Of a stretch of 64,000 bases of DNA, positions 28,020 through 30,046 are shown in pieces. Every line of letters starts with the position of its first letter. Position 1 is the first letter of the stretch. A model generated the notes under the pieces. It saw only the letters and a program-made list of their open reading frames with translations. It had not been told where the DNA came from and did no database searches. The stretch covers positions 62,001 through 126,000 of the forward strand of contig NZ_JAHLSY010000003.1 in NCBI RefSeq assembly GCF_019049855.1. The letters are read 5' to 3'. The stretch is from Hydrogenophilus thiooxidans. GTDB lineage: Bacteria; Pseudomonadota; Gammaproteobacteria; Burkholderiales; Rhodocyclaceae. A program made the translations under genes and the position numbers.

Positions 28020-28573
28020 GCACGCTTGTCTGCAGCCATTTACGCCCGCTCGCGTTGACCGCACTCACAGCGCTGATCGTGGCATTGCCCGGACCGCTCT
28101 ACGCGAAAAAGAGCGATCGCGACCAACCGGTTGCAATCGACGCCGACCGGATCACCGTCGACGAACGCGAACGCACCCACCGCTTCGAAGGCAACGTCCT
28201 GCTGCGCCAAGGTACGCTGGAAATTCGTGCCGACGAGGTAATCGTGACACAGGACGACCGGGGGTTTCGCACGGGAACCGCGATCGGCAAAGGGCGCTTG
28301 GCCACCTTTCGCCAACAGAAAGAGGGTTCGGACGAATGGATCACGGGGCAAGCGGAACGGCTCGACTATGACGCGCGGGCCGAACGCTTGACGCTGACCG
28401 GCCGCGCCCGCGTCACCTCGGGTGCCGACATCGTCGAAGGCGCGGTGATCGTCTATGAAGTGGTCAACGAAACCTATCGCGTGACCAAAAGCGGCGCGAC
28501 CTCCTCTGCCCCGAACGGGCGGGTGCGCGCGATCATTCAACCCAAAAACCCACCCAAGGAGCAAAAACCATGA
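28016..28573 (+). CDS. lptA: LptA, periplasmic LPS-bridge protein
   Basis: A 185-residue periplasmic protein whose jellyroll subunits form the bridge for LPS from LptC to LptD. A signal peptide ends at about A30 (PLYA). The OstA/LptA domain follows: [36 protein letters not shown] and later [16 protein letters not shown]. lptB, which often follows lptA, is missing here; an enoyl-CoA hydratase gene takes that position, overlapping by ATGA. LptF and LptG are encoded at 54-56 kb in this window. Confidence 0.92.
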
Positions 28574-29358
28574 ATGAAACCAGCCATTCATCCGTCGTAT
28601 TGACCGAAGTCCATGGCAAAGTCGGGCTGATCCGCATCAATCGCCCGGAACGGATGAACGCGCTCAACGACGCGGTGGTTGATGCGATCGGCGCTGCGCT
28701 CGACACTTTTGAGGCCGACGACGCCATCGGCGCGATCGTCATCACCGGCAACGAAAAGGCCTTCGCGGCAGGCGCGGACATCGGCGCGATGGCCGAGTTC
28801 GACTATCAGCACGCCTACCGAACCGACTACATCACCCGCAACTGGGAGCGCGTGAAGACCTGTCGCAAACCGATCATCGCTGCGGTTGCCGGCTATGCGC
28901 TGGGGGGCGGGTGCGAGTTGGCGATGATGTGCGATTTCATCATTGCCGCCGACAACGCGAAGTTCGGACAACCGGAGATCAAGCTCGGAATCCTACCCGG
29001 TGCCGGCGGAACGCAGCGGTTACCCCGTGCGGTCGGAAAGGCAAAAGCGATGGACATGTGCCTTACTGCGCGCTTCATGGACGCGGAAGAGGCCGAACGT
29101 GCGGGGCTGGTGTCGCGGATCGTCCCCGTCGACCGATTGCTCGACGAGGCACTCTCTGCCGCGCAGACCATCGCCTCGTACTCACTGCCCGTGGTGATGA
29201 TGGTCAAAGAGTGCGTCAACCGTGCGTTCGAAAGCTCGCTTGCCGAAGGGCTCCTCTTCGAGCGCCGCGTCTTCCATGCCGCGTTTGCGCTCGAAGACCA
29301 GAAAGAGGGCATGAAAGCGTTTCTGGAAAAACGCCCGCCCCAGTTCAAAAACCGCTGA
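28570..29358 (+). CDS. Enoyl-CoA hydratase
   Basis: A 262-residue crotonase-fold enzyme that hydrates 2-enoyl-CoA in fatty-acid beta-oxidation. Both catalytic glutamates of true hydratases are present: E116 in [12 protein letters not shown] and E136 in FGQPEIKLG, followed by GAGGTQRL. The oxyanion-hole segments AFAAGADI and LGGGCE are also intact. The start overlaps the lptA stop by 4 bases, so it is translationally linked to an LPS gene. It lies 100 bases before the phasin gene. It could supply hydroxyacyl-CoA for polyhydroxyalkanoate, but that is inference, and the usual phaJ (R-specific) belongs to another family. Confidence 0.92.
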
Positions 29359-29360
29359 GT

Positions 29361-29373
29361 TGTGCACTGCACA
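29361..29373. promoter_or_regulatory. PhaR-like palindrome upstream of the phasin promoter
   Basis: TGTGCA-C-TGCACA is a perfect 6-base inverted repeat around one centre base, ending 8 bases before the -35 box. It shares the TGCACTGCA core with the second palindrome at 29417. PhaR repressors of PHA-producing bacteria bind TGC-rich palindromes near phasin genes. Assignment to PhaR is by analogy. Confidence 0.6.
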
Positions 29374-29381
29374 AAAAAATG

Positions 29382-29410
29382 TTGACTTTCTCCCGATGGG
29401 TCGATATAGT
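29382..29410 (+). promoter_or_regulatory. sigma70 promoter of the phasin gene
   Basis: TTGACT (29382-29387) and TATAGT (29405-29410) are separated by exactly 17 bases. Both hexamers are 5-of-6 matches to consensus, one of the clearest promoters in the window. Two related palindromes bracket it. Confidence 0.75.
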
Positions 29411-29416
29411 ATGAAT

Positions 29417-29431
29417 TGTTGCACTGCAACA
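29417..29431. promoter_or_regulatory. PhaR-like palindrome at the transcription start
   Basis: TGTTGCA-C-TGCAACA is a perfect 7-base inverted repeat. It lies 7 bases after the -10 box, so a bound repressor would cover the start point. Its centre is 57 bases from the centre of the upstream copy, near five and a half helical turns. Confidence 0.62.
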
Positions 29432-29458
29432 TTTTTGAACTCATCGGGAGGTATCGCC

Positions 29459-30046
29459 ATGAACACGCAATTCATTGAACAACTCGCCAACAACCAGCGC
29501 AAAATTTCGGAAGCCTGGCTCGCCATCGCCAACCAAAACTTCGCGCTCGGCGAAAAGCTCACCAACATCACGCTCGAAATGCTGCGCGGCAACATGGAGC
29601 GTTTCGCGCAACAAAGTCAGGCGCTCGTGACGCAAAAAGATCCGCAAGCTGCGTGGCAAGAGGTGCAGAAATTCGTCACCAGCAACGTCGAAGAGCTGGT
29701 GAACCAGCAGCGTCAAGTCGCGGAGCTTTTGAAACAGCACCGCAACGAACTCAGCAAGGTCGCCGAAGAGCAGATCAACGCAATCAACAAAGAGATCGCG
29801 GAGCTCCTCGACAACCTGAGCAAATCGGCTCCTGCGGGTTCGGAAGTCGCGATCAACGCCGCGAAGTCGGCTTTGGCCGCTACGAGCGCTGCCTACGAAA
29901 ACATTCAGAAAGCGTTCCAGCAGGTGAATGAAATCGTCGAAGCGAACCTCTCCGCCGCGGCGAACGCCGCGACCAAAGCGGTGAGCACCGCTGCGCAAAC
30001 CGCGCAAAAAGCGCAACCGGCTGCGGGCGCGAAGAAGTCGGCGTAA
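29459..30046 (+). CDS. Phasin family protein
   Basis: A 195-residue helical protein that coats polyhydroxyalkanoate granules (phasin_2-type). It is rich in Ala, Glu, Gln and Asn, with long amphipathic helices: EQLANNQRKISEAWLAIANQ, NITLEMLRGNMERFAQQSQ and a NNVEELVNQQRQV-like heptad region. The C-terminus ends in an Ala-Lys-rich tail (AAGAKKSA), common in phasins. ATG 29459 is fixed by a GGGAGG site. It has its own promoter with two palindromes and is followed by a terminator, so it is probably a single-gene unit with strong regulated expression. No phaC, phaA, phaB or phaR gene lies in the window. Confidence 0.88.
   Translation: MNTQFIEQLANNQRKISEAWLAIANQNFALGEKLTNITLEMLRGNMERFAQQSQALVTQKDPQAAWQEVQKFVTSNVEELVNQQRQVAELLKQHRNELSKVAEEQINAINKEIAELLDNLSKSAPAGSEVAINAAKSALAATSAAYENIQKAFQQVNEIVEANLSAAANAATKAVSTAAQTAQKAQPAAGAKKSA

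Follow-up and report, generated by a model that had tools for sequence, protein, structure and literature searches.

Paired palindromes bracketing the phasin promoter of Hydrogenophilus thiooxidans: candidate PhaR operators conserved across the order

In Hydrogenophilus thiooxidans, a phasin gene is preceded by a promoter that lies between two related palindromes, raising the question of which regulator recognizes them and how it might act on the promoter. We examined this locus in a stretch of 64,000 nucleotides, here called the window, that spans C13:62001-126000 of a 2.31-Mb genome in 71 contigs. Direct reading confirmed to the base the original prediction of two such palindromes with centers 57 bp apart. 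The upstream palindrome, TTGTGCA-C-TGCACAA (TTGTGCACTGCACAA), is centered at 29367 and the downstream palindrome, TGTTGCA-C-TGCAACA (TGTTGCACTGCAACA), at 29424. Both have perfect 7+1+7 odd symmetry and share the core TGCACTGCA. They bracket the promoter TTGACT-17-TATAGT ahead of the phasin start codon, an ATG, with 7 bases between the upstream palindrome and the -35 hexamer and 6 bases between the -10 hexamer and the downstream palindrome. Given this 6-base gap, the downstream palindrome covers the predicted transcription start site.

Table 1. Coordinates of the features at the phasin locus (window positions).
Feature	Position	Strand	Remarks
Enoyl-CoA hydratase gene, precedes phasin gene	28570..29358	+	stop codon one base from upstream operator
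Upstream candidate PhaR operator, BS1-like	29360..29374	.	1 mismatch to YTKNTGCRNYGCANMAR in 17-mer 29359-29375
-35 hexamer TTGACT	29382..29387	+	direct reading
-10 hexamer TATAGT, 17-bp spacer	29405..29410	+	direct reading
Downstream candidate PhaR operator, BS2-like, over predicted transcription start	29417..29431	.	1 mismatch to YTKNTGCRNYGCANMAR in 17-mer 29416-29432
Phasin gene, 195 aa, predicted target	29459..30046	+	PF09361 E 1.6e-11; TIGR01841 35.4 bits, cut-off 30.2

Such palindromes could have arisen by chance, or could act at the RNA level, for instance by terminating transcription of the preceding hydratase gene. A single palindrome with 7-base arms is ordinary in this DNA, since the window contains 11 odd palindromes with arms of at least 7 bases where 7.4 are expected. 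However, two palindromes no more than 100 bp apart with an identical 9-bp core occur only once in the window and in none of 200 dinucleotide shuffles. The downstream motif TGTTGCANTGCAACA has its only exact match in the 64 kb at the downstream palindrome; when as many as three mismatches are allowed, 6 matches are found against 2.2 expected. A terminator is further disfavored by the one-base center, which permits no ordinary hairpin loop unless base pairs open.

The published motif for PhaR of Ralstonia eutropha, YTKNTGCRNYGCANMAR, is a degenerate palindrome with a one-base center (PMC12849132, PMC3570403). The two palindromes are the only sites in the window within one mismatch of this motif, well inside the published limit of three, and 16 further sites in the window have two mismatches. 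Across the genome, the motif at three mismatches showed a mild excess of 79 matches against 46 for a reversed control. Genome-wide enrichment was uninformative both for the short core (23 matches versus 18 reversed) and for TTGCANTGCAA at one mismatch (54 versus 78 reversed). Perfect TTGCANTGCAA sites number five in the genome. Of the other four, three are within reading frames and one is intergenic, and the genes concerned, judged by eye, are unrelated to polymer metabolism.

The window contains no phaR gene, and the original prediction had a regulator acting from elsewhere. The gene does lie outside the window, but it is not far away: it is located at C13:134517-135092 on the same contig, 8.5 kb beyond the right end of the window and about 43 kb from the phasin gene, where it closes a phaC-phaB-phaB-phaR cluster. 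The encoded protein scores 155.4 bits against the PhaR equivalog TIGR01848 (cut-off 109.45) and carries both Pfam domains, PF07879 (DNA-binding) and PF05233 (accumulation regulator). The sole perfect TTGTTGCRNYGCAACAA site in the genome is in this cluster, flanked by the two phaB genes and some 0.9 kb ahead of phaR. Read by eye, this site is within a perfect inverted repeat of 14+3+14 bp (L023:10007-10037; C13:136007-136037) that is also present in G015, a genome of the same genus (L131). In the direction of the genes the repeat is followed by TACAAT and directly then by a terminator-like hairpin with eight T, before phaB2. This odd order of parts might link PhaR to transcription reading through into phaB2-phaR. 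As to autoregulation of phaR in relatives, a site occurs in the 400 bp before the gene in 4 of 30 loci examined from the 59 family genomes that carry phaR, in contrast to the phasin upstream regions described below.

Against the PhaR reading, no site with up to two mismatches occurs just upstream of the three phaC genes of this genome or in the 700 bp upstream of a second phasin gene (L024:923-1483 on C24), suggesting that the second phasin is possibly outside PhaR control. Elsewhere in the genome, a one-mismatch site (L061:1501-1517; C45:120511-120527) immediately precedes the ribosome-binding region of a PRK08190-type gene, which encodes a fused enoyl-CoA hydratase/phosphate acetyltransferase. 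A diverged site occurs at the same place in G015 (L140), suggesting that this is a real PhaR target. A symmetric TTGGTGCAGTGCACCAA within a longer palindrome (L063:1501-1517; C1:153082-153098) is located some 190 bp upstream of a gene for a formate/nitrite transporter (PF01226) and is kept in G015 (L137).

The original prediction would be refuted by the absence of the palindromes upstream of orthologous phasins, leading us to examine relatives, with one phasin (the best match) read per genome throughout. A phasin was found in 58 of 61 genomes of the host family. The upstream scan comprised 58 rows, namely the best match from 57 of these 58 genomes plus Hydrogenophilus sp. SKW272; row L038 (G016), whose contig starts 14 bases before the match, was left out, and rows L070 and L087 have only 161 bp upstream. 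There is about one row per genus, the host genome and G015 are near duplicates, and many of the compared genomes are drafts. A site with up to two mismatches is present upstream of 57 of the 58 phasins (58 of 59 with L038 counted) against a mean of 4.8 in shuffles that keep dinucleotides but not phylogeny. A strict pair, with members 55-61 bp apart, occurs at 45 of 58 (shuffle mean 0.005); this spacing was chosen after a scan at 50-65 bp, which gave the same 45. Allowing one member up to three mismatches raises the count to 53 of 58 (shuffle mean 0.21). The best-fit -35/-10 hexamers (scoring at least 8.5 of 12) lie between the members of every one of the 45 strict pairs. The original prediction was not refuted by this comparison. 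Retention of the pair at 45 of 58 phasins, sampled at about one per genus, is at odds with both chance palindromes and an RNA element, and we regard either as having a negligible probability.

Within the genus, the phasin of G015 is 99% identical to that of the host and the phasin of Hydrogenophilus sp. SKW272 is 61% identical. Upstream of the latter (L027:1940-2003) only the start-site operator, TTGCTGCGGTGCAGCAA, is present after TTGACA/TATAGT, and the scan found no upstream operator. Among the relaxed pairs of the family, 39 of 53 upstream sites have G at position -5, versus 11 of 53 downstream sites. This difference was not upheld in the order sample and thus we do not claim it as general. 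PhaR itself was found in 59 of the 61 family genomes. G012 has the pair and no PhaR match in a draft that is 96% complete, G052 has neither PhaR nor phasin, and G014 and G023 have PhaR and no phasin match.

A similar pattern was observed across the order, where we sampled 120 genomes and found a phasin in 78, of which 74 are outside the host family. Upstream regions were read for 72 of these 74, from 33 families; G098 and G105 were omitted because their matches were too weak. A site with up to two mismatches occurs upstream of 65 of the 72 phasins (shuffle mean 6.1). By a looser rule, with 50-65 bp between members and one member allowed up to three mismatches, a pair occurs at 49 of 72 (shuffle mean 0.18), a count that includes pairs in L240 and L246 that look like chance matches. 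These pairs come from 26 of the 33 families, or 24 without the two doubtful pairs, leaving 7 families with no pair under this rule. A convincing promoter lies between the members in 46 of the 49. The 7 of 72 phasins that have no site are all from genomes that have PhaR. Taking two draws with identical settings as the same genomes, phasin and PhaR occur together in 77 of the 120 genomes, phasin alone in 1, PhaR alone in 7, and neither in 35; the sole phasin-bearing genome without PhaR is G105, with its weak phasin match. An order-wide search with the pattern itself returned a match in 299 of 399 genomes. We do not use this as a count because the reversed control differs in composition and many of the listed matches are in repeats and apparent coding sequence. 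Among the matches listed, bracketing pairs were seen at phasins in G064, G109, G152, G153, and G157. In some genomes of the order, for example G077, G090, G092, G111, G142, G146, G158, and G179, the phasin gene is divergent from an adjacent phaR, and one operator pair could serve both genes.

The sequence and layout of the palindromes, their conservation, and the presence of PhaR are matters of observation. The match to a published motif in a published layout, the phaR gene in the genome, the conservation at nearly all family phasins, and the co-occurrence with PhaR together make PhaR binding and promoter closure the best-supported reading, in agreement with the repressor originally proposed. 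On this sequence evidence, we consider it very likely that the palindromes are PhaR operators and that PhaR closes the phasin promoter until polymer forms. We also considered that they might instead serve a different regulator, one that controls storage or carbon metabolism and shares the TGCA core. Further PHA regulators exist, and the symmetric site before the formate/nitrite transporter gene is outside polymer metabolism. However, the motif, layout, and co-occurrence all indicate PhaR, and another regulator appears very improbable.

For binding, occlusion, and polymer sensing in the host we draw on published work with R. eutropha and Herbaspirillum seropedicae. By analogy, free PhaR would bind both operators, one just upstream of the -35 hexamer and one on the transcription start, and would thus bar RNA polymerase from the phasin promoter. 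Formation of polyhydroxybutyrate would draw PhaR onto the granule, opening the promoter so that phasin is made. Phasin would then coat the granule and displace PhaR, and the promoter would close again.

How two operators might close one promoter is a separate question. In R. eutropha, a third site is predicted in the phaP1 reading frame and the authors call an arrangement with LacI-like auxiliary operators conceivable (PMC12849132, PMC3570403). In H. seropedicae, concentrations of the PhaR counterpart PhbF were calculated for a tetramer (PMC3206438, PMC4873508). One tetramer could then bridge both operators, perhaps with an intragenic one, and trap the promoter in a small loop. The narrow spacing in the family, 55-61 bp, is compatible with this. 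The geometry of the family pairs divides into three segments: the distance from the upstream center to the -35 hexamer is 15-16 in 45 of 53 pairs, the promoter spacer is 16 in 46 of 53, and the distance from the -10 hexamer to the downstream center is 16 in 37 of 53. Also in favor of a loop, there is weak compensation between segment lengths in the order sample, where 4.8% of permutations are as tight. By contrast, the segments vary about independently in the family, where 23% of permutations are as tight and compensation is not significant. In addition, the spacings of the 46 promoter-bearing pairs in the order sample range over 52-62 bp, roughly one helical turn, and the most frequent spacing in the family, 59, does not correspond to an integral number of turns.

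Intragenic operators also received little support. The phasin reading frame of the host contains no third operator within two mismatches, although one stretch, at 29580, is three mismatches from the palindrome. Over the first 300 bases of the phasin genes, sites with no more than two mismatches are at background level in both the family (1 of 58; shuffle mean 3.7) and the order (7 of 71; shuffle mean 5.8). With little helical phasing in the spacing and intragenic sites at background, steric occlusion is favored over a LacI-like loop, which we regard as unlikely. Thus, the two operators are probably each placed to hinder RNA polymerase sterically. A more speculative idea, to which we give a similarly low probability, is that the two flanking operators work as one unit, forming a clamp of nearly fixed length around a sigma-70 promoter. 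One PhaR tetramer would close this clamp, and the inducer would be an insoluble polymer. Such a clamp would be ancestral to the order and intragenic operators would be a local addition.

The paired-operator arrangement has already been described in one model species and is here extended to many relatives. The comparison carries this promoter layout, known from footprints in one species, over to the host genus and to 26 of the 33 other families examined in the order. The comparison also provides a test of a recent suggestion, giving little support to the intragenic third operator and the LacI-like loop and supporting the promoter bracket. Where only one operator is present, as in Hydrogenophilus sp. 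SKW272, the genome provides a natural contrast for the contribution of the upstream operator. Among the best-ranked matches of a literature search that covered few subscription journals, we found none that addresses how far the pair is conserved in the order and none on phasin regulation in Hydrogenophilus, and we claim no priority.

The closest known system is phaP1 of R. eutropha H16, where DNase I footprinting defined BS1 directly upstream of the -35 hexamer and BS2 around the start site (PMC12849132, PMC3570403). The phaP1 oligonucleotide with which PhaR binding was assayed includes TTGGTGCGCCGCAACAA, and we aligned this manually with the same motif. The host locus has in common with phaP1 the one-base-centered palindromes that follow the same consensus, each one mismatch off here, the position of one site just upstream of -35 and of the other around the start (predicted here), a sigma-70-like promoter, a phasin as the target, and PhaR in the genome. 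The host differs in that both palindromes are perfect over 7+7 and the reading frame has no third site within two mismatches, whereas one is predicted in R. eutropha. The PhbF motif of H. seropedicae, TGNTGCN3GCAA (PMC3206438, PMC4873508), fits the host downstream site, TGTTGCACTGCAA. PhbF represses phaP1 and phbF in reporter assays and its footprint is on the promoter of phbF itself; the available portions of these two papers do not state a two-site layout for phaP1. At phaP1 of Bradyrhizobium diazoefficiens, where the PhaR consensus is TGCRNYGCASMA (PMC6201568), there are two sites at the phasin promoter, as there are in H. thiooxidans.
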